Below, piece after piece: positions 829 to 15,924 of a DNA stretch of 52,085 nt (the first letter of the stretch is position 1; each line of letters begins with the position of its first letter). The notes below the pieces were generated by a model. The model searched no databases and was not told the DNA's origin. It saw only the letters and a program-made list of their open reading frames with translations. Source of the DNA: Verrucomicrobiota bacterium (GTDB lineage Bacteria; Verrucomicrobiota; Verrucomicrobiia; Limisphaerales; J093); assembly GCA_022710935.1 (NCBI GenBank), contig JAKLFY010000045.1, forward strand, positions 1 to 52,085, given 5' to 3'. Both the position numbers and the translations under genes were made by a program.

Positions 829-3800
829 CTACTCCTCCTGGTCCGTGATCGGGGTTGCCAGAGGATCTCCTTCGAGTGCCGGGTTAGGTTCGGCCTCGAA
901 CTCAAGCCGGCCCGGGGCCTGGTTCTTGGTGAGGTCCAGTTCGTTTTCGATTTCCTGCTGTCGGCGCGTCAACTCCGCCAAGCGATCGGCGTACTCGAAT
1001 GCCGCGCCCATTTGGGCCTGGGTATCCACCAATCGCTTGCGTGCGTCCGCGAGGTTGCGGGTGAGGGTCTCGACGACGTCTTCAAGATGCTGGATCGCGC
1101 GTTCGACCGAGCGGATGGTGCCGTGGGCGGTGTCGGTGACTTTTGCCGTGTATGTGGTTTCACCCTTGAGGACGATTTCAGGTCCACCCATGAAGGTGTC
1201 GGCAACAAAGACCTGGAAGCCGGCAATGGCGCCGACCTGGCGCTCGGCGTGGGTGCCACGCATGCGCTCGGCCCGCCGGAGTAACAACTCACCGGCGATG
1301 CCGCGATCACGAATCTCCTGACCTTCGATGGTCATTTGGAACTTGTCGCCAGTGGTGTCCTGCCTGGTGCCGATGTCCTGGCGGACGGCATCGAGGCGTT
1401 GTTCAAGTCGGGGGATTTCGTCGGTGAGATGGCGGACCCGGCTGCGGAGTTTGAACTGGGTCTCCTGATGCTCGCAATGCAGTCGGCTCAAGCGGGCAAC
1501 CTCGGCGTCGATGCGCGCCTTCTCGATTACGAGCGGATTGCCCGACGCGATGGCCTTGACCTCGGCGTACGTCAGTGCGGCACCGTCGATGTCCTCGATG
1601 CGGCGCAGGTCGGTCTCGCCGGTCATCACCTGCGCGATGAACCGCGCTTTGTTCTCCAGAACCTGCCAGGCGTACGCATCGAAGGACTGTTCGGTAACGT
1701 AACGGTAAACCCGGATTTCGGCATTCGAGTTGCCCTGACGCAGGATGCGGCCTTCGCGTTGCTCGACATCCGCCGGCCTCCAGGGCGCGTCCAGGTGATG
1801 CAAGGCGATCAACCGTTCCTGGACGTTGGCGCCAGTACCCATCTTTTGGGTGCTGCCGAAGAGGATGCGAACCTTGCCGGCCCGCACGTCGCGGAAGAGC
1901 TGCAACTTGGCCGCATCCGATTCGGCGTCCTGGATGAAGGCGGTCTCGCCGGCGGGAATGCCTCTTGCCACCAGCTTGTCGCGCATGTCTTCGTAAACGG
2001 AGAACCCTTGGCCGCCGGTCGGCACGGAGAGGTCGCAGAACACCAGTTGCGCCGAACGCTCGGCTGCCGTCTCCCGCCATATGCGCTCGATCTCCGCCAC
2101 GGCCTTGTTGACCTTGCTGTCGGGATGATCGGGCAGACGAGGGTCATGCAGGCGAAGGTCGAGGGCGGCTTTGCGCCCATCGGTGGTGACGAGCAGCATG
2201 TTGTCCTCGCGCGGGTCAACGCGGCCCATGCGCAACGCGTCGGCCCTTTCAACGAGCGAGGCGACGATTTCTTTCAACTCCGGCGAGCAGGGGGCGCTGA
2301 TGACGGTCGGCTTGCCACCGTGCAGGTCCGGTACGGGCAGCTTGAGCATCGCCTGGGTCTGAATGTCCGCCACCTGCCGGAACATCTGCATCAACTCAGG
2401 GACGTTCGAGAACTTACAGAATCTGGTGTGCAAGCGGTACCCGGAGCCGTCTGGGGCCAGTTCCATGGCGGTGACCGGCTCGCCAAAGGTGGCCGCCCAA
2501 GCGTCGAAGTGGGCGACGTTCTGCGCCTTGAGCGTGTCCATCTGGAGGAACCGCTGCATGGTGAACATCTCGGCCACGCTGTTGGCGATGGGCGTGCCGG
2601 TGGCGAACACGACCCCGCCGCCACCGTTGATCCGCTGGATGTGCTGCACCTTGAGGAACATGTCCAGGGCGCGCTGGGAGGCGGTCTGAGGCAAGCCGGC
2701 GATCCGCGTCATCTTCGACACGTAAAACAGGTTCTTGAAGGCATGGCTTTCGTCGGTGGCCAACGAGTCGACGCCCAGTTCTTCAAAAATCAGTCCGTCG
2801 TCCTTCTTCTCGTCAGCCGCCAAGTCCTTGAGTTTGGTTTCCAACTGCTTCTTGGCGCGCTCCAAGGCCTTCACGATCCGGGAATCGCCCTCCTTGCGCT
2901 GCTGTTCGATGGCCAGCGCCAACTCCCGCAACTGCTCGTGGAAGAACTCCTCCTGGGTCTCACGCGACACCGGGATTTTTTCGAAGCCGGAGTGGGTGAC
3001 GATGACCGCATCCCAGTTGCCCGTGGCGATCCGACTCATCAGCGTCTTGCGCCGCTCCTTCACGAAATCGTCCTTCGTCGCGACGAGGATGTTGGCGCCC
3101 GGATAGAGCGCGAGGAACTCGGAAGCAAACTGGCCCAGCATGTGGTTCGGAACCACGATCAGAGGTTTGCGCGCCAGGCCCAAGCGCCTCTTTTCCATCG
3201 CCGCGGCACAGACGATGTACGACTTGCCGCTGCCCACGACCTGTGCGAGGAGGCAGTTGGGTGTCTGCAGGATGCGCCAGACGCTGGCTTTCTGATGTGG
3301 GCGCAGGACGATGGCCGGGCTGGCACCGGGCAGCGTCAGGTGCTCCCCGTTGAACGTCCGCAGCCGGGTGTGGTTGAACTCGTCGTTGTACTTTCGGACC
3401 AGCCGTTCACGGCGTTCGTCGTCCTGCCACAGCCACTGCTTGAACCGTTCCTTGAGCTTCTCCTGCTTGTCGCGGGCCGCCTCGGTGGCCGGGCCGTTGA
3501 CCACGTCGCGTTCGGTGTGTGGGTCATGGTCATAGACCGTCGGCACCCGGAGGTTGAGCGCGTCTTCGATCAACTCCAGGGCACTGCGCTGGTCTGTGCC
3601 CCACTCGGTCGTGTTCGCGACGCAGAAGCGAACGCCATAGTCCCCGCGCACCACCCAGAGGCCCAGTTGTGGGGCGTGACTGACCGTGATGCCCGATTCT
3701 CCCAGCGTCGCTTCCGCAAACCGCTGAATGTCCTCCGCCGGAATCCACGTACTGCCCAACCGGACGTCGATCTCGGTGGCCGACAGGTCTACCGGCTGCA

Positions 3801-6027
3801 CCTGCCGCAGCGCGTCGACGTTCGGTTTGAACTGTTCGTCCACCAAAGCAGCCGCTTCGGCTGCCGCCAACTTCGCCCGGACATTGCCGGAGAGGTACTC
3901 GTCCTCGGTCTCCCAGCGGCGGGTCTGGGGATTGAGGAAGATGAGGCCCTTGAGGTCGGGGATGCACTCGGAGGGTTGGCGGTGGAGCAGAGCCGCGATG
4001 AACTCCAGGTCCACGCACCCGCGTTCGTTCAACGTCACCAGCAATGCCTCCTGAGCGGTGCTGACCTGGGGGACGGGCCGCTGCTTCTGGATGGTACGTT
4101 CATGGAAGATCGCCGCCTTGGTGGCTCGGCCCGTCTCCTTGTCGTACTGCTCCAGGGACAACAGCAACGGCAGGTCGGGGTCGCCACGAAAGGCAGAGGT
4201 ATTGGCTCGGGCGGAGACGGGGCCAAGCCGGGCGACAAAGCTGTCGTAGGTGCGGTTCAGGTGCTCGCGGGCGGCGACGACCTCTTCGTCCAGCGCCCCG
4301 TTCAGTTGCGACCGCAGACACTGGCGCACGGCGTCGCGGACGCGCATCAAGCCGCGGACGCGTTTGGCGACCTGGCCGGACAGCCCGGTGAGAACCTGGA
4401 GCGAGTCGCCGTCGCGGATGGCGATCTGCTCGTTGACGAGGGTGTAGGCGTTGGGCTTGATGTGGTCCGGGGCGGGGAAGGACTCCGCCGGGGTGGGGGC
4501 AACCACGCGCCGAACCTCGGGCTTGAATACGTCCCGCGGCAGGAGCGCAATGGCTTCGGCGAGTTGCTCGGCGAGGTCGCGGCGGTTGCTGACGAGGGTG
4601 GGTTCGCCCCGTCCGTACATCTTCCCTTCGAGCCGCATCTCGCCCAGCATCATCTCGGGGTGGGCAGCAAAGTACTCGTTGATGGCGATGGTCTCGCCTA
4701 GGGAGTTGGTGATTTCCTCCGCGCCCGCCTTCCACGCCGGGCCGGAGGGGAGTTCGCCGGGCAGGCGTTTGCGTAGAACTACGATGTCGGCGGTGACCTC
4801 GGTGTTGGCGTTCCGCTTGAAGGCGTCATTGGGCAGGCGGATGGCCCCGAGCAGGTCGGCCTGGTGGGCGACGCACTCACGCAGGGCGGCATCGTGTTTG
4901 TCGAGCGTGCCCTTGGACGTGATGAACAGGATCAAGCCGCCGGGACGGACCTTGTGCAGGGCGGCGGCGAAGAAGTAATCGTGAATGAGGAACTTCCAGG
5001 CCTTGAACCGAGGATCGTGAACCATGAAGTCCCCGAACGGGATGTTTCCCAAAGCCACATCGTAGAAACCGTCGGCGAGTTTGGATTCCTCGAAGGGCTG
5101 ATGCCGGATGTCGGCGTCGGGATAGAGCTGCTTGGCGAGTCGGGCGGTGATCGAATCGATCTCGATCCCGGTGATGAGGGACCGGGCGTGCATCTCGTCG
5201 GGCATCAGGCCGATGAAGTGGCCGAGGCCGAGAGCCGGTTCAAGGATACGGCCGTGCGTGAAGCCGAGTCGCTCCAGCGCCGCGTACATGGCGCGAACGA
5301 CGACGGGCGCGGTGTAGTGGGCGTTGAGGGTGGTGGCGCGCGCCGATTCGAGTTCCTCGGGCGTCAGGACTTGCTCCAGCCGCTCGCGCTGTTCCTTCCA
5401 CTCCTCATTCCACGGGTTGAAGGCCTGCGGTAGACCGCCCCAGCCGACGTAACGCACCAGCACGCGCTTCTCCCGGTCGGTCGCCGCGCGGCCGTCCGCT
5501 TCGAACTGCTTCAACAACTCGATGGCCGCGAGGTTGTCCTGGTACTTGCGCTTGAGCGAACCGGCCCCGATGTGGTCCGCGTCCGTGATCCGGTAATTGC
5601 GTTGGTTGCGGAGCGGTTCGGGTTCAGTGGGCGCCGGCCCGAAGGAAACCCATTCTTCCTCGTTGGCTAGTCCTGCTCGGGCGGCAGGTAGATGTACCTC
5701 TCCCGCACGATCTCCCAGGCCCGGTCCTGGGCCTGGCGCGGTGTCAAGCCCTGCTGGATGAAGTGCCGGCGCAGCGAGTCCAGTTCCGCCTCGGTCTTCT
5801 CCTCCGCCTCCAGCAACATCGTGTGCAGTTGGCCTTTGGCCTCCAGTTCCGCCACCAGCCTCGGGCAGAATCGGCGCCAGTGCTTCTCGGCCAGGAGGCC
5901 GTAGGCGGTCAAGGGTGTCCTCATGGTTCAGCGTCTCCCCGGAAAACAACTCCAGTTGCAGCTCATCGTACCCGCACCTCCCCCGCGTTCGTCCCCCCAC
6001 TCTCAACTTCAACATGCCGCCCCACAA
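829..6027 (-). CDS. DarB-like DNA methyltransferase-helicase (SNF2/DEAD superfamily 2)
   Basis: Very large protein joining an N6-adenine-type methyltransferase to a superfamily 2 helicase, the layout of phage P1 DarB and of similar proteins on integrative elements. Visible motifs, numbered from 6027: SAM-binding ILEPALGLGHFIG (about 261-273), a catalytic NPPF-like NIPFGDF (about 328-334), Walker A VVGSGKS (about 930), DEAH-type TDESHAFKN (about 1090), TGTPIANS, and motif VI EQREGRILRQGN (about 1424). P1 DarB acts against host restriction; an anti-restriction or plasmid-protection role here is inference. The N-terminus is doubtful: the first 120 codons overlap a convincing 85-aa gene in another frame and read like a shadow, while family-like sequence begins around NYRITDADHIGAGSLK. 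No ATG, GTG or TTG lies between that gene's stop and this segment, so a frameshift or unusual initiation near 5,690 is likely. Confidence 0.85.
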   Translation of the reverse strand: MWGGMLKLRVGGRTRGRCGYDELQLELFSGETLNHEDTLDRLRPPGREALAPILPEAGGGTGGQRPTAHDVAGGGGEDRGGTGLAAPALHPAGLDTAPGPGPGLGDRAGEVHLPAARAGLANEEEWVSFGPAPTEPEPLRNQRNYRITDADHIGAGSLKRKYQDNLAAIELLKQFEADGRAATDREKRVLVRYVGWGGLPQAFNPWNEEWKEQRERLEQVLTPEELESARATTLNAHYTAPVVVRAMYAALERLGFTHGRILEPALGLGHFIGLMPDEMHARSLITGIEIDSITARLAKQLYPDADIRHQPFEESKLADGFYDVALGNIPFGDFMVHDPRFKAWKFLIHDYFFAAALHKVRPGGLILFITSKGTLDKHDAALRECVAHQADLLGAIRLPNDAFKRNANTEVTADIVVLRKRLPGELPSGPAWKAGAEEITNSLGETIAINEYFAAHPEMMLGEMRLEGKMYGRGEPTLVSNRRDLAEQLAEAIALLPRDVFKPEVRRVVAPTPAESFPAPDHIKPNAYTLVNEQIAIRDGDSLQVLTGLSGQVAKRVRGLMRVRDAVRQCLRSQLNGALDEEVVAAREHLNRTYDSFVARLGPVSARANTSAFRGDPDLPLLLSLEQYDKETGRATKAAIFHERTIQKQRPVPQVSTAQEALLVTLNERGCVDLEFIAALLHRQPSECIPDLKGLIFLNPQTRRWETEDEYLSGNVRAKLAAAEAAALVDEQFKPNVDALRQVQPVDLSATEIDVRLGSTWIPAEDIQRFAEATLGESGITVSHAPQLGLWVVRGDYGVRFCVANTTEWGTDQRSALELIEDALNLRVPTVYDHDPHTERDVVNGPATEAARDKQEKLKERFKQWLWQDDERRERLVRKYNDEFNHTRLRTFNGEHLTLPGASPAIVLRPHQKASVWRILQTPNCLLAQVVGSGKSYIVCAAAMEKRRLGLARKPLIVVPNHMLGQFASEFLALYPGANILVATKDDFVKERRKTLMSRIATGNWDAVIVTHSGFEKIPVSRETQEEFFHEQLRELALAIEQQRKEGDSRIVKALERAKKQLETKLKDLAADEKKDDGLIFEELGVDSLATDESHAFKNLFYVSKMTRIAGLPQTASQRALDMFLKVQHIQRINGGGGVVFATGTPIANSVAEMFTMQRFLQMDTLKAQNVAHFDAWAATFGEPVTAMELAPDGSGYRLHTRFCKFSNVPELMQMFRQVADIQTQAMLKLPVPDLHGGKPTVISAPCSPELKEIVASLVERADALRMGRVDPREDNMLLVTTDGRKAALDLRLHDPRLPDHPDSKVNKAVAEIERIWRETAAERSAQLVFCDLSVPTGGQGFSVYEDMRDKLVARGIPAGETAFIQDAESDAAKLQLFRDVRAGKVRILFGSTQKMGTGANVQERLIALHHLDAPWRPADVEQREGRILRQGNSNAEIRVYRYVTEQSFDAYAWQVLENKARFIAQVMTGETDLRRIEDIDGAALTYAEVKAIASGNPLVIEKARIDAEVARLSRLHCEHQETQFKLRSRVRHLTDEIPRLEQRLDAVRQDIGTRQDTTGDKFQMTIEGQEIRDRGIAGELLLRRAERMRGTHAERQVGAIAGFQVFVADTFMGGPEIVLKGETTYTAKVTDTAHGTIRSVERAIQHLEDVVETLTRNLADARKRLVDTQAQMGAAFEYADRLAELTRRQQEIENELDLTKNQAPGRLEFEAEPNPALEGDPLATPITDQEE
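5667..5924 (-). CDS. Small conserved-looking protein preceding the methyltransferase-helicase
   Basis: An 85-aa product beginning MRTPLTAYGLLAEKHWRRF and ending AWEIVRERYIYLPPEQD. It is rich in charged helical residues and has the composition of a real protein, unlike the overlapping N-terminal 120 codons of the helicase frame. A GGGGAG stretch lies upstream of its ATG at 5924. It ends just before the helicase reading frame becomes protein-like, which fits a small gene directly upstream and coupled to it. No domain is recognised. Ribosomal frameshifting from this gene into the helicase frame is another possibility. Confidence 0.55.
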   Translation of the reverse strand: MRTPLTAYGLLAEKHWRRFCPRLVAELEAKGQLHTMLLEAEEKTEAELDSLRRHFIQQGLTPRQAQDRAWEIVRERYIYLPPEQD

Positions 6028-10352: not shown

Positions 10353-10447
10353 TTAGGCCGAGTTCTGATTAATGCCGAGTCGAGGGGGCGATTCCCGCGG
10401 AAAGCGAAGGAATCGCCCGGTTTTCGTCGTTGCGACTCGGCATTATC
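10347..10447 (+). repeat. Left inverted repeat of the RIT element (101 bp)
   Basis: Exact reverse complement of 13658-13758 over 101 bp. Its inner end overlaps the stop codon of the third recombinase gene. It contains nested smaller inverted pairs: aatgccgagtcg with cgactcggcatt, and inside them gggcgattcc with ggaatcgccc. These are likely recombinase binding arms. Confidence 0.95.
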
Positions 10448-11444
10448 AGAGGCTCTGGAGGAAGGTTAATAACTGGTCGGACGGCCGGAAGCGGCGCGAT
10501 GGTCCAACGAAGGGTTCGGTCTTGGCAAGGGCCTGCTCCTTGAGTTGCATGCTGGCGTGGAAGTACACGTCTGCCGTCTTCATGTATTCATGGCCGAGCC
10601 ATAGCGCAATGACGGAGCGATCTACGCCGCTTTGCAGCAGTTCCATTGCAAGCGTATGGCGCAATACATGGGCGGAGACTCTTTTGGTCTTGAGCGAGGG
10701 GCATTCGGCGCGTGCTACTGCCAGGTGCTTGGCGAGCAGGTATTCCACGCCATCTCGACTCATGGCCTCACCGCGCGCATTGGGAAAGAGCACATCGTTG
10801 GGCTGTCCACTTCGCTCTCGCAGCCAAGCGCGTAGTGCTGTCACGCTATCTTTGCGCAGCGGGACGCAGCGTGTCTTACGCCCTTTGCCGGTACAGCGTA
10901 CGTGGGCACCAGGACCCAACGTCACATCTTGACAACGAAGACCCAGCAACTCGGAAACACGCAGGCCAGTCTGTACCGCGACCAACAACCAGGCGTGGTC
11001 GCGCCGGCCAGACCAAGTGTTCTGATCTGGGGCGGCCAGCAGGGCCTCGGTTTCGGCTCGACTCAAGAAGTCCACAGGCCTCTTGGTGAAGCGTTTGCTG
11101 GGGATCGCCAGAACCCGCTGCGCTACGGCCCCGAAGCCAGGTTCCCGCAGCGCGACATAGTGGAAGAATGAGTGGACGGCCGCCAAACGCACGTTCCGGC
11201 TCTGTGGCGTGTTATGTCGCTCCTTTTCTAAATGCTCCAGGAAGCGACCGATGAACGGAGCATCCAGGTCCTGGACACTCAAGGCGGTGGGGGTCTTCTT
11301 GAGGCGGCACTGAGCGAAGGCAAAGAGGAGACGAAAGGAGTCACGGTAATTCGCGATTGTGTGCGGGCTGGCATTGCGCTGGTCCATAAGCCGCTCCGTG
11401 AAGAATGCCTGGAGCAACTCGGAGAGGGTGGCGAGGCTTTTCAT
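10446..11444 (-). CDS. ritC: RIT tyrosine recombinase, third gene (RitC)
   Basis: A 332-aa tyrosine recombinase. The N-terminal SAM-like core-binding domain (about 8-115) has the typical NASPHTIANYRDSFRLLF. The catalytic residues are all present: Arg162 in TGLRVSELLGL, Lys187 in GKGRKTR, His259 and Arg262 in HVLRHT, His285 in WLGHEYMKT and Tyr294 in ADVYFHAS. Its ATG at 11444 overlaps the second recombinase's TGA as ATGA, with GGAGG seven bases upstream. Its stop touches the left inverted repeat. In RIT elements the three enzymes are thought to act together on the end repeats; the individual roles are not settled. Confidence 0.92.
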   Translation of the reverse strand: MKSLATLSELLQAFFTERLMDQRNASPHTIANYRDSFRLLFAFAQCRLKKTPTALSVQDLDAPFIGRFLEHLEKERHNTPQSRNVRLAAVHSFFHYVALREPGFGAVAQRVLAIPSKRFTKRPVDFLSRAETEALLAAPDQNTWSGRRDHAWLLVAVQTGLRVSELLGLRCQDVTLGPGAHVRCTGKGRKTRCVPLRKDSVTALRAWLRERSGQPNDVLFPNARGEAMSRDGVEYLLAKHLAVARAECPSLKTKRVSAHVLRHTLAMELLQSGVDRSVIALWLGHEYMKTADVYFHASMQLKEQALAKTEPFVGPSRRFRPSDQLLTFLQSL

Positions 11445-12370
11445 CGCTTCGCCTCCTTCCGCACGCAACGCTGCGTGGCCAAGCGCAACAACTCCGGTGC
11501 CGCCTCAAGATACCAGTAAGTGTCACGGACGTGGGCGTGACCGAGATAAGTGGACAACTCGGGCAAGTGTGCCTCCACGTTGGCCTTGGACCGATACCAG
11601 CGCACCAGGGTTTCAATGGCAAAGTGGTGCCTCAGATCGTGCAGCCGTGGCTCATGCCGGTCGCCAGCCTGGAGCAAGCCGATTTGGCGCACGACCTTAC
11701 GGAACCACTGATGCACCGTGGAGTAGCATAAACGGGTTCCCCGCTCGGAGACAAAGAAGCCAGAACCGACCGGTTGCGGAAAAGCTTCGTCACGGAGGGC
11801 GGCGTAATGCCGAAGGGCCTGTTGGCTGGAGCGATGGAGGGGCACCAGTCGCAATTTGTCGCCTTTGGCGTGGCGAACGGTCACCACGCCACGGGTGAGA
11901 TCCACGTCCTGACGATCCAAAGCAACGGCTTCACCAACGCGCATGCCGGTTACGGCCAGCAACCCGATCAAGGTGGCGTAGGAAGCGCCTTTGAGGTGGC
12001 AGTTGGGATCAATCTCGCGTGTGGCCTGCATCAACCGGAGGATGTCCCCCGCCCGGTAACGGTAGGGGTCTCGCCGAGCACAGTGGTAGGGCAACAATCG
12101 CTGGGCGGGAATCTCGGTCCGGGGGTCCAGTGCACTCAGATGTTGCGCGAAGCGACGCACTACGCCCAGGCGGTGGGCCTTCTGCTTTAGCGGGAGGTGG
12201 GTGGGGTAGGTCGCCCATGTCACCGCCAGCTTGGTGGTGATGAAGGGCGCGCGTTTCTGCTCGGCGAATCGGACGAAATGACGGAGCAGATTGTCGATCC
12301 CCCGTAGCTTGTACCCAAGCTGACGGCGGAGGTTTAGGTAGTTGTCCAGATGCCTGGCGAGCGGTTTCAT
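11441..12370 (-). CDS. ritB: RIT tyrosine recombinase, second gene (RitB)
   Basis: A 309-aa tyrosine recombinase starting MKPLARHLDNYLNLRRQLGY. Catalytic residues are Arg144 (TGMRVGEAVAL), Lys169 (RHAKGDKLRL), His244 and Arg247 (HDLRHHFA), His278 (YLGHAHVRD) and Tyr287 (TYWYLEA). A strong GGAGGTGCGCG ribosome binding site precedes the ATG, which overlaps the first gene's stop as ATGA. The next gene starts within its stop codon in the same way, so the three are one transcription and translation unit. Confidence 0.92.
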   Translation of the reverse strand: MKPLARHLDNYLNLRRQLGYKLRGIDNLLRHFVRFAEQKRAPFITTKLAVTWATYPTHLPLKQKAHRLGVVRRFAQHLSALDPRTEIPAQRLLPYHCARRDPYRYRAGDILRLMQATREIDPNCHLKGASYATLIGLLAVTGMRVGEAVALDRQDVDLTRGVVTVRHAKGDKLRLVPLHRSSQQALRHYAALRDEAFPQPVGSGFFVSERGTRLCYSTVHQWFRKVVRQIGLLQAGDRHEPRLHDLRHHFAIETLVRWYRSKANVEAHLPELSTYLGHAHVRDTYWYLEAAPELLRLATQRCVRKEAKR

Positions 12371-13605
12371 CGCGCACCTCCAGGCCAAGGTTGAGCCAGC
12401 CTGCGCAGCACTTTGAGGTCGACCTTCGCATAGATTTGGGTGCTCTGGGCCCCTTGGTGTCTGAGGACCTGTCCGATTTGGGCCAAAGAGGCGCCTCCCC
12501 GAAGCATGCGGATGGCCAGACCGTGGCGGAGCAAATGGGCGCCTTTATGCGGAGGATCAAGCTGAGCTCGTACCAGCGCGCGCCGAACCAAGCCCGCCAC
12601 GCTGCCCGAACCTGCGAAGCCCTGATACGGGGCCTTGCAGCGGAGGAAGACCTGACGCGAGGACTCGATCGAGCGGCGCGTCTTCAGATAGTGCGCAATC
12701 GCTCGGCCCACGTCATGCGGCAGCGGTAAACGATCCACCCTCCCACCCTTGCCGCGGACTGATACTTCCCCAGCACCCCAGTCGAGATCCTCCAAACGAA
12801 GCTGCGCCACCTCACCGGCCCGCAGCCCCAAGCGAGCCAAAAGTAAGAGGACGGCATAGTCTCGGCGGCCCGTCCTCCGACGCTGGTCGCAACTCCTCAG
12901 GAGTCTCCTGACCTGCACCACGTCCAGGGATTTGGGCAGTTCTGCCAAACCCCGGGCCGCAACCTTGGGCACCGCGTTTGCCAGGGGCCTGCGGATGCGA
13001 CCCTCCTGCAACAGAAAGCCGAAGAAGCTCCGCAGAACCTTCGTCGCGGACTGGAGGGATCGCCGACCGTAGCGCGCACTGGCCTGGAGGATGAAATCGG
13101 CCGCATCGCCTGCCCGCAACTGACGAAGGCGGGCCTGACCATCGGAGAACCGGTGTTTGAGGAAACGCCGAAGCACCCCCAGATACACGCTGACGGACCC
13201 ACGGAGAAGACCTCGTTGCTGGAGCAGGAACTGCTCGTAATCACCCACGAGACGATCCACGGAGTTCCGCGCGCAGGGGACCCGAGGGAGGGGGATGAGA
13301 CCGGTCTGGCGCAGGTGCTGGAGCAGTAGTGTCAGTGTACATGACTCGCCGCCGTCGCGGCTGTAGGTCCTCCATCGTGCTTCGAGAAAGGCTGCCGATT
13401 GCCGTTCGTCAAGCTGCTCCAACCCGAGGCCTTGATCGGCGAGCCATTGGCTGAGGTTCGCCGCCAAGTGCAGCTTGCTCCTACACCTGTGCCGGGAGTA
13501 GCCCTGCCGAACCAGAAGAGTCGCAAAGCCGTCCAAGTGGGGCGCCAAAGGACCTGACCGCAGTGGAACCAAGTCCTGGGGTTGCGGACAAAAGAACTCG
13601 ATCAT
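12367..13605 (-). CDS. ritA: RIT tyrosine recombinase, first gene (RitA)
   Basis: A 412-aa tyrosine recombinase. Starting at ATG 13605 puts an AAAGGAA ribosome site ten bases upstream; another ATG lies at 13614. The frame stays open outward through the right inverted repeat, but that part is not protein-like. The N-terminal half (about 1-230) holds the core-binding domains. The catalytic residues are Arg262 (LGLRAGEVAQL), Lys286 (RGKGGR), His357 and Arg360 (HLLRHG), His383 (LRHQGAQST) and Tyr392 (QIYAKVD). It is the promoter-proximal gene of the trio, 53 bp from the right inverted repeat. Confidence 0.92.
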   Translation of the reverse strand: MIEFFCPQPQDLVPLRSGPLAPHLDGFATLLVRQGYSRHRCRSKLHLAANLSQWLADQGLGLEQLDERQSAAFLEARWRTYSRDGGESCTLTLLLQHLRQTGLIPLPRVPCARNSVDRLVGDYEQFLLQQRGLLRGSVSVYLGVLRRFLKHRFSDGQARLRQLRAGDAADFILQASARYGRRSLQSATKVLRSFFGFLLQEGRIRRPLANAVPKVAARGLAELPKSLDVVQVRRLLRSCDQRRRTGRRDYAVLLLLARLGLRAGEVAQLRLEDLDWGAGEVSVRGKGGRVDRLPLPHDVGRAIAHYLKTRRSIESSRQVFLRCKAPYQGFAGSGSVAGLVRRALVRAQLDPPHKGAHLLRHGLAIRMLRGGASLAQIGQVLRHQGAQSTQIYAKVDLKVLRRLAQPWPGGAR

Positions 13606-13657
13606 AGGTGTCATTTCCTTTCGTTGAGTGGTGATGTGGAGAGGAAAGTGCCACCCA

Positions 13658-13758
13658 GATAATGCCGAGTCGCAACGACGAAAACCGGGCGATTCCTTCG
13701 CTTTCCGCGGGAATCGCCCCCTCGACTCGGCATTAATCAGAACTCGGCCTAACGACCG
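13658..13758 (-). repeat. Right inverted repeat of the RIT element (101 bp)
   Basis: Exact reverse complement of 10347-10447, including the nested inverted pairs. Its outer end carries the core cgaccg that joins the interrupted HTH frame. The promoter for the recombinase trio probably lies within it or in the 52 bp between it and RitA. Confidence 0.95.
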
Positions 13759-14143
13759 CTTCCTGTGCGATACCCGCCAACCGAGCCGTTCCAGGGCTAC
13801 CGGGCAGAGCGTTGCCACCCGGCCTTGTCACCCGCCGGCGGCAGTCGGGACTCGGTGGTGGCGCGTGGGATCGTGCACGCTTGGAGGTTCATCGGTCAGA
13901 ATGTTCGACGTCGGCCGCGTTAAGCCTTGTTGGCGGCGCGTGACACATCGGCTCGGGCGAGGAATTCGGAGATCAGTGTTCGGCGGTTAGAGGGGACCGG
14001 GATTTGCGAAGCAGCTTTCGCAGAAACGCGGGAAGCCTTGTTCGCTTTCCTGTTTCCGGCACGACTGGTTCAGTGAAACGCGCATGGTGGCGCGGCGTCG
14101 CCTGTGGGCTCCCCCATCTTGTGCGTTCTCGGCCGCGAGAGCC
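13759..14143. other. 3' remnant of the interrupted HTH gene, then no recognised gene
   Basis: The first bases (13759 on) continue the interrupted HTH frame as FLCDTRQPSR. The remainder up to the next HTH gene has only shadow-like frames. No repeat was noticed. Confidence 0.45.
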
Positions 14144-14374
14144 ATGAACCTGTCAGACATGTTGCAGAGCACCGTCAGGGTGGAGCCGTTGTTGGTTCGA
14201 CCGGAGCAGGCAACGCTGATCTTGGGGAGCGTTGAATTGCTGCATGATCTGGTCGGGGCGGGCTGGTTGCGGCCCGTGATCAGTCGCAAACGCCTGACGC
14301 TGTATTCCTTGACCGACCTGCAGGGATGCGTGGCCCGGCTGGAAGCCGGGGAGAACCTGGAGACGCCGGCGTGA
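14144..14374 (+). CDS. Excisionase-like HTH protein next to the integrase
   Basis: A 76-aa product from ATG 14144. The segment PEQATLILGSVELLHDLVGA is a helix-turn-helix in which the usual Ala-x-x-Leu-Gly pattern is visible. It is followed by GWLRPVISRKRLTLYSLTDL and a helix ending RLEAGE, the pattern of excisionase-family recombination directionality factors. It converges on the integrase gene with a 15-bp gap, a usual int/xis neighbourhood. An upstream in-frame ATG at 14084 would add 20 non-family residues. A role as the island's excisionase is inference. Confidence 0.65.
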   Translation: MNLSDMLQSTVRVEPLLVRPEQATLILGSVELLHDLVGAGWLRPVISRKRLTLYSLTDLQGCVARLEAGENLETPA

Positions 14375-14389
14375 AATCCGATCACTGGC

Positions 14390-15409
14390 TCACGCGTGAA
14401 CACTGGTTGCCAGGTCAATGTCAGGATCGATGGGCAGCAGTTTGGCGTAGTGCTTCTGCGTGGTCGCCACCTCGTCGCCCATCCAGATCGCGATTTTGTA
14501 GATCGAACACCCACGACTGGCCAGAAGGCTGCCGAACGTGTGTCGCATGATGTGGGGCGTGACCCAACGGAAGCCCAACGGTTCGAGGTAGCGGAAGTAC
14601 GGGCGATCGAAGTCGTAACGATACAGGGATTTGCCCTGCTCAACGTCCGGCCGCAGCATGAATGGCGAGCGGAGACCGTACTCGGTGAGGAACTCGCGAA
14701 ATTCCTTGGTCAACGGAACGGTCCGCTCTTCCTTGTCCTTGGGTTCAAAAGTCGGCGTCTTGCGGACGTGGAGCAAACCCTGATCGAGATCAAACCAGTC
14801 GGGGCGAGCCTGAATGATCTCGTTCTTGCGGAGGCCTGCGTGGAAGCCGCAGTAGAAAATGAACTTCAATTCAGGGCTTGGCGCCCCAGCAATGATCTGG
14901 TCGCGTTGCTCGAATGTGCAGAACCGGCGCCGGGGCACCGAGATGACCCGGCCCATCCGAACCTCCGCCGCCGGGTTGTCATGTGTCAAGGCGCGCTGCA
15001 CCGCCCAGCCGAAAAACGAGCGCAACGCCATGACGTAAGTTTGGGCGCTGGACTCGCTGACTTCCTCCCGCTGTTCGTCGTAAAAGCGCTGGACCTCTTG
15101 CGTGGTGATCGAGGCGGTGTCTAGCCAGCCGATTGACCTTGCGAACTTGCGCAGGATCGCCCCTTTGCTGTCAGCGCTGGCAGCGCTGAAGTTGTGATGT
15201 GCCAACTGATACGCCAGGAAAGTATCGATGTCGGCAGCCAATCCCTCGGTCGGATTGAGATTGGGGCGCTTGATGATTTGCGCCGCCCTCTTGACTGCCA
15301 GCACGTAGTCGTTGGTTTTCAGCGAGACGAAGATGCGACGACCCTCCTCCTGGTGAGCGAACCAGAAGGTCCGGCCTCGCTGGTAGAGGCCCTTGATTTT
15401 CTCTCCCAT
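14390..15409 (-). CDS. Tyrosine integrase of the genomic island
   Basis: A 339-aa phage-type integrase. It has an N-terminal arm-binding-like segment (KIKGLYQRGRTFWFAHQ, residues 4-45), a core-binding SAM-like domain (about 58-150), and a catalytic domain with Arg194 (HAGLRKNEII), Lys in KDKEERTVPL (about 224-226), His286 and Arg289 (HIMRHTFGS), Asp312 in WMGDEV where many relatives have His, and nucleophile Tyr321 (QKHYAKLLP). It starts 3 bp after a small gene that repeats its N-terminal segment. The tRNA-Val gene 440 bp upstream is the probable attachment site. It catalyses integration and, with an excisionase, excision. Confidence 0.9.
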   Translation of the reverse strand: MGEKIKGLYQRGRTFWFAHQEEGRRIFVSLKTNDYVLAVKRAAQIIKRPNLNPTEGLAADIDTFLAYQLAHHNFSAASADSKGAILRKFARSIGWLDTASITTQEVQRFYDEQREEVSESSAQTYVMALRSFFGWAVQRALTHDNPAAEVRMGRVISVPRRRFCTFEQRDQIIAGAPSPELKFIFYCGFHAGLRKNEIIQARPDWFDLDQGLLHVRKTPTFEPKDKEERTVPLTKEFREFLTEYGLRSPFMLRPDVEQGKSLYRYDFDRPYFRYLEPLGFRWVTPHIMRHTFGSLLASRGCSIYKIAIWMGDEVATTQKHYAKLLPIDPDIDLATSVHA

Positions 15410-15412
15410 AAG

Positions 15413-15742
15413 CTAGGAGTTGGATGCCTGGATTGCAGCGTTGATCCGCTCCGCTCGTGCAACCGCGGCCTCGACTTCACCGGTATTGAGGCAGACATGG
15501 AAATCGACCCAGAAGGCGCCTTTGCTCACGTACATGCGCCGCCAGATTGGGGGAGGCTGCTGTTGGTCCAATGCAGTACGGAGGTCTTTCAGCCGGACCA
15601 GGGCCAATCGGTAGTTGTTGGTTTCCAGCGAGACAAAACGCCGACTACCGCCTTTCTGGTGAGCGAACCAAAAGGTGTTGCCTCGCTGGTAAAGTCCGCG
15701 TATTTTTTCGCGCGTGACAGTTTTTGATTGCAGACCACTCAT
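15413..15742 (-). CDS. Stand-alone protein duplicating the integrase N-terminal segment
   Basis: A 109-aa product from ATG 15742. Residues about 8-50 (REKIRGLYQRGNTFWFAHQ, then RRFVSLETNNYRLALVRLKD) are closely similar to the first 45 residues of the adjacent integrase. The rest (about 51-109, ending VEAAVARAERINAAIQASNS) has no match in the integrase. No catalytic residue is present, so it cannot recombine DNA. It lies directly upstream of the integrase on the same strand, with 3 bp between stop and start. A plausible role is binding the same arm sites to modulate integration; this is inference. Confidence 0.65.
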   Translation of the reverse strand: MSGLQSKTVTREKIRGLYQRGNTFWFAHQKGGSRRFVSLETNNYRLALVRLKDLRTALDQQQPPPIWRRMYVSKGAFWVDFHVCLNTGEVEAAVARAERINAAIQASNS

Positions 15743-15772
15743 CGGTACAGGGCACATAGTTGCGCTGCCGAA

Positions 15773-15797
15773 AAGTGTGACAATCGCTGTCACACTT
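15773..15797. repeat. Inverted repeat upstream of the integrase genes
   Basis: Two 10-bp arms, aagtgtgaca and tgtcacactt, are separated by atcgc. The site lies 31 bp before the start of the first integrase-cluster gene, a position suited to an operator or a recombination protein site. Confidence 0.6.
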
Positions 15798-15803
15798 GTC
15801 AAG

Positions 15804-15831
15804 TTTATGGGGGTCTATGGGCCTCTATGGG
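15804..15831 (+). repeat. Three direct repeats of tatggg at exact 10-bp spacing
   Basis: tatggg occurs at 15806, 15816 and 15826, the last two within tctatggg. Helical phasing between integrase and tRNA is what one expects for integrase arm-type sites in an attachment region. Confidence 0.55.
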
Positions 15832-15849
15832 CTTGCGTAAGTGCTTGAT

Positions 15850-15924
15850 GCGCGCTTAGCTCAGTGGAAGAGCACTTCCTTCACACGGAAGGGGTCGCAG
15901 GTTCAAGTCCTGCAGCGCGCACCA
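15850..15924 (+). tRNA. tRNA-Val (anticodon CAC)
   Basis: The acceptor arm gcgcgct pairs with agcgcgc. The D arm has tagctcagt, the anticodon stem is cttcc/ggaag with loop ttcacac (anticodon CAC, reading GUG), and the T arm has gttcaagtc. The CCA end is encoded at 15922-15924. It sits beside the integrase cluster and is the likely island integration site. The reverse strand gives the frequently misannotated peptide LQDLNLRPLPCEGSALPLS. Confidence 0.95.

Follow-up and report, generated by a model that had tools for sequence, protein, structure and literature searches.

Genes at the attachment site

The window that we analysed is an entire contig of 52,085 nucleotides from a Verrucomicrobiota bacterium, and the genes of interest are in a genomic island beside its attachment gene, a tRNA-Val (CAC) gene (15850-15924, + strand). 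The integrase gene, int (14390-15409, - strand), encodes a tyrosine integrase of 339 aa, whose catalytic domain falls in the phage integrase family (PF00589, E 1.1e-9, 38.8 bits against a cut-off of 27.1) and which matches the phrog_1 integrase with E 8e-45. Ahead of it, on the tRNA side, is a small gene with an ATG start and a TAG stop for a protein of 109 aa (15413-15742, - strand). The two genes are in the same reading frame, and their junction reads TAG CTT ATG (15407-15415, - strand), a single codon, CTT, separating the stop of the small gene from the integrase start. This is the 3-bp spacing given in the sequence-only reading of this DNA. No obvious Shine-Dalgarno sequence was seen before the int ATG.

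That reading also had the two proteins sharing some 45 N-terminal residues, and we confirm a shared segment of about 39-45 residues. In a BLASTP alignment, residues 12-50 of the small protein match residues 3-41 of the integrase at 28 of 39 positions (72%, E 3e-17), and a Smith-Waterman comparison of the small protein with the integrase N-terminus gives z = 26 against shuffles. The duplication is thus not a product of chance, and on this similarity the small gene is a duplicate of the arm-binding-like domain at the N-terminus of its own neighbouring integrase. In the integrase the domain takes up residues 1-45 (15275-15409, - strand), and in the small protein, where the copy is called domain 1, residues 11-58 (15569-15712, - strand). 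In a tree of the 50-residue domain, intended to date the duplication, three topologies were all accepted.

Arm-binding (AB) domains have a layout of three strands and one helix (PMC8138268). For the integrase N-terminus strands are predicted at 8-11, 14-21 and 24-31 and a helix at 35-46, in a model that is poor overall and has pLDDT values mostly of about 40-60 in this part. For domain 1 of the small protein the AF2 model, which is of low confidence (mean pLDDT 57) and indicative only, has strands at 18-20, 23-30 and 33-41 and a helix at 44-60, which is the same order. The earlier description of the segment as arm-binding agrees with its position in the integrase and would agree with the fold as predicted in these low-confidence models. 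Fold searches with the AF2 model of the small protein returned only kinase N-lobe-like noise.

The same domain probably occurs a second time in the small protein, as a worn copy in its C-terminal half (domain 2, residues 66-105; 15428-15547, - strand), where the pattern Y...G.FW....V.L.T......A..RA..I..A recurs with a deletion of about 7 residues. Compared profile against profile, domain 2 scores 20.5 (hhalign P 6e-4, at an hhalign probability of only 28.7%), and column-shuffled controls have a mean of 8.5 +/- 2.1 and a maximum of 17.1, 0/300 reaching 20.5, so that the second copy is detectable over chance. Pairwise tests of domain 2 were mixed, with P from 0.002 to 0.35. The AF2 model, again with mean pLDDT 57, gives strands at 71-74 and 77-84 and a helix at 87-108, a strand-strand-helix order. 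Because its C-terminal half resembles a copy of the domain, the small protein is best taken as two arm-binding-like domains in tandem, of which the second is worn.

Distribution among related elements

Relatives were sought in 320 genomes of the order, and the full small protein was found in one other of them (G003, locus L016), with 66% identity over 107 residues. There too the small gene is 3 bp before the integrase gene and in frame with it, the junction being TAA GCC ATG, so the frame and the 3-bp spacing have been kept although the stop codon differs. In the L016 integrase gene a C run after codon 240 has one base too many, which interrupts the frame; this could reflect decay of the gene or a mistake in the assembly.

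Two sister elements have recognisable integrases and no small gene. In L015 (G036) the integrase is intact and 77-78% identical to that of the window; in L056 (G001) it has about 70% identity in the first 225 residues and is interrupted by an insertion, in which there is a gene for a large serine recombinase (Resolvase and Recombinase domains, L056 8688-10760). The distance from tRNA to int is only about 140 bp in both, which means that the small gene is absent there and not decayed. No copy was found in L062 (G008, decayed) or L066 (G130, with a decayed integrase). Since it is missing from two sisters with recognisable integrases, the small gene is an optional, subclade-specific accessory gene. 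For the sequence-only reading, which looked to related islands for the two-gene arrangement and took absence or decay of the small gene there as counting against its proposal, the outcome is divided: the arrangement is kept and constrained in L016, and in L015 and L056 the gene is absent without being decayed.

A wider sample of the class (384 genomes) gave more integrases with the N-terminal domain, several of which adjoin tRNA genes (Val, Asp, Thr, Arg, Gly, Ala), and no separate small gene in the stretches examined. There were no homologues of the small protein in the phage, plasmid and viral-contig collections. The Pfam family DUF6538 (PF20172) is matched by the small protein at 20.9 bits (P0001) and 22.4 bits (P0003) and by the integrase at 14.4 bits, all under the curated 27-bit cut-off. 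In other Verrucomicrobiota there are short ORFs with a DUF6538 match, about 84-124 codons long and mostly next to tRNA genes (L092, L096, L101, L102, L104, L105). We considered these free-standing ORFs as parallels and rejected them: they are integrase-stub-like, no companion integrase was evident in the stretches read, and each is probably the stub of an integrase that stayed behind at an attachment site.

Selection on the small gene

The selection figures come from a single pairwise comparison, that of the window with L016. For the small gene dN is.24 and dS 1.02, and for codons 1-240 of int they are.11 and 1.22. Over the whole small gene there are 36 amino-acid changes, with 55.4 +/- 3.3 expected under random placement and 0/20000 simulations as low. 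Domain 1 alone has 12 changes where 24.5 are expected, and domain 2 has 20 where 23.9 are expected (P 0.054). By these counts domain 1 is clearly constrained at the protein level and domain 2 scarcely so. The open frame by itself is weak evidence for selection (P 0.22).

Domain 1 keeps the residues GN and LET of the outgroup domains, whereas the integrases encoded next to it have GR and LKT, a difference that is compatible with a division of task between the two copies. We set aside an origin by recombination of the N-terminus of the sister integrases, as the common residues look simply ancestral.

The island end

All elements of this integrase family found here adjoin the 5' side of tRNA-Val and have a common island end. 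In the window its conserved part immediately before the tRNA includes GCGTAAGTGCTTGAT (15835-15849, + strand). Further out the hexamer TATGGG occurs three times without mismatch, at a spacing of exactly 10 bp (15806-15831, + strand); the window has no other triple of this kind, and 40 Markov sequences of equal length had none. A second repeated motif, TGTGACA-N5-TGTCACA, is at 15776-15794 (+ strand), and paired TGTNACA boxes also occur in related elements. Only by analogy are the TATGGG repeats putative arm-type sites; they do fall in the region 15,770-15,850 that the sequence-only reading had named for a test of DNA binding by the small protein. The order is tRNA, repeats, small gene, int, and the repeats would therefore fall also in the leader of the two-gene operon. 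A simple scan of that leader found no promoter-like site.

In both elements that have the small gene, the window and L016, TATGGG is exact in both of the repeat units closest to the tRNA, and in L015, L056 and L062, which are without it, the nearest unit reads TACAG. That the TATGGG units track the presence of the small gene is suggestive only, at two against three loci.

A decayed second island end at G003:C36 4525-4660 (L052/L054) matches nt 1-41 of the tRNA, after which the match stops. It seems, then, that the tRNA gene's 5' part, nt 1 to about 41, belongs to the island and that crossover takes place in the anticodon arm. For the far end of the island in the window, no second 5' fragment of tRNA-Val was found in the window or in G000.

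Other genes of the window and related islands

Convergent with int is a conserved ORF of 76 aa (14144-14374, + strand), with no Pfam family above cut-off, which is a candidate for a recombination directionality factor (RDF) or excisionase. It is conserved in L015, L016 and L056, that is, with and without the small gene, and from its position and conservation only it is a better candidate for the ordinary RDF than the small gene.

Three adjacent and overlapping tyrosine recombinase genes (10446-13818, - strand), all with PF00589, resemble RIT (recombinase in trio) elements as described in PMC3414803. Two homologous recombinases, at about 51-54% identity, are found in G003:C12 at ~44-46 kb (L055 1-2264). 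The window also has an ORF of 1732 aa (829-6027, - strand) with methyltransferase-like N-terminal matches and SNF2/DEAD helicase matches; it matches mad2, BrxHI and DrmD, all partially, and is possibly anti-phage defence cargo. A Fic-domain gene is 98% identical between G003 (L055 8519-9235) and G001 (L056 2714-3430) in islands that are otherwise more divergent, hinting at recent exchange.

Proposed role and alternatives

Our preferred reading, to which we give a probability of about 0.45, is that the small protein is a free-standing bivalent arm binder which occupies or bridges arm sites, represses the int operon and so damps movement of the island. The N-terminal arm-binding-like domain of the integrase would have been duplicated to give the small gene, in which a second, internal copy then degenerated. 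Small gene and int are in one frame and probably on one transcript, and the 3-bp gap suggests that their translation is coupled. We infer that the small protein binds the arm-type repeats beside tRNA-Val, most likely and chiefly through domain 1, where it would compete with the integrase arms or bridge them. It would also repress its own operon, which we propose because the repeats fall in the operon's leader. In effect the small protein would be a damper on both integrase dosage and arm occupancy, with the island staying integrated until an RDF acts. Counting against this are that there are only two instances, that the gene is missing from the sisters, that domain 2 is barely constrained, that the integrase frame of L016 is interrupted, that the leader scan gave no promoter-like site and that the AF2 model is of low confidence.

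We are more doubtful of a wider form of the proposal, that this is a natural control in trans in which the arm-binding domain of an integrase has been split off and doubled, a bivalent decoy or bridge translated with the integrase sets the direction or frequency of recombination, and the att repeats co-evolve with its presence. An RDF would be expected throughout the element family that it serves, and L015 and L056 have no small gene, with none found in L062 and L066 either. It thus cannot be a required or general directionality factor of this integrase group, and the interpretation given in the sequence-only reading is supported in part only; the small gene may work like a directionality factor in the elements that have it.

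Some of the same observations could be explained in other ways. The protein could be purely a transcriptional autorepressor that binds to the TATGGG array or to the TGTGACA/TGTCACA pair in the leader and does no more than silence the int operon, outside any recombination complex. The placing of the repeats between tRNA and operon start would suit this, as would two domains per chain for binding adjacent sites, and in KplE1 there are int promoters that overlap att and are repressed by Int and RDF (PMC2951348). However a domain derived from the integrase that recognises integrase arm sites would almost unavoidably affect arm occupancy as well, and the leader scan gave no promoter-like element, and we think this explanation unlikely. 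Another possibility is a remnant, the N-terminal part of an earlier integrase that has survived at the attachment site as a neutral ORF. It would have its parallel in the stub-like DUF6538 ORFs beside tRNA genes elsewhere in the phylum, and would account for sisters without the gene and for the weak constraint on domain 2. But the amino-acid changes, in one pairwise comparison far below the neutral number for the whole gene and for domain 1, argue against a mere remnant; start, stop, frame and 3-bp spacing have been maintained over a dS of about 1, and the C-terminal half is an apparent second domain copy and not an integrase core-binding domain. This explanation is already disfavoured and we consider it distinctly improbable.

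The spacing itself could be what matters, if translation of the small gene and not its product governs integrase synthesis, by termination and reinitiation at TAG CTT ATG. The exact in-frame 3 bp in both members and the lack of an obvious Shine-Dalgarno sequence at the int ATG fit such a leader ORF, for which however the amino-acid conservation of domain 1 would be needless, and sister integrases start without it; it seems to us very improbable. Still harder to credit is an extended recombinase with three arm-binding domains per protomer, made by stop read-through or by assembly of the small protein with the integrase. The shared frame, with just a stop and one codon between the genes, would allow it, but the stop codons are TAG in the window and TAA in L016, an ATG follows directly and there is no sign of recoding. 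Read-through as the main reading we reject because the stop codon differs. We return then to the bivalent arm binder and regard the small gene as a real, unusual and lineage-specific accessory gene, known from two genomes, for which the mechanism proposed is plausible from the sequences.

Comparison with known systems

DUF6538 (PF20172) is matched here weakly and below its cut-off, and its matches seen in the phylum fall either in frames as long as an integrase gene or in what look like stubs beside tRNA genes. RDFs and excisionases such as lambda Xis and TorI of KplE1 are likewise small proteins encoded beside int, and the small protein could like them act both on att DNA and on the transcription of int; it differs in that its domain is of the integrase arm-binding type. 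Autoregulation is known for integrase genes with a promoter overlapping the att region, which are repressible both by Int and by the RDF (PMC2951348).

The AB domains of lambda Int, Tn916 Int and others are N-terminal in tyrosine recombinases and have three strands and one helix (PMC8138268, PMC4880445), a layout that is predicted, at low confidence, for the domain described here, and the arm sites of such integrases are short tandem repeats near the core, as are the island-end repeats here. The difference is that here the domain is also present as a separate gene with two copies per chain, whose DNA binding we propose. Lambda Int binds its arm sites through its N-terminal domains, and which of the sites are occupied determines direction (PMC4880445). 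Lambda-type integrases choose direction by the arm sites that their N-terminal domains occupy.

We found no earlier description of such a small gene in the literature searched, which was limited in extent. The separated amino-terminal domain of lambda Int, supplied in trans, reportedly influenced Int function, in work by Sarkar et al. in EMBO J in 2001, which PMC5871717 cites. That was a laboratory fragment with a single domain, whereas here there is a natural gene with two. If our reading is right, a separately encoded arm-binding domain would be a new way to regulate the mobility of an island, and a natural example of it would allow a simple test of arm occupancy in trans.
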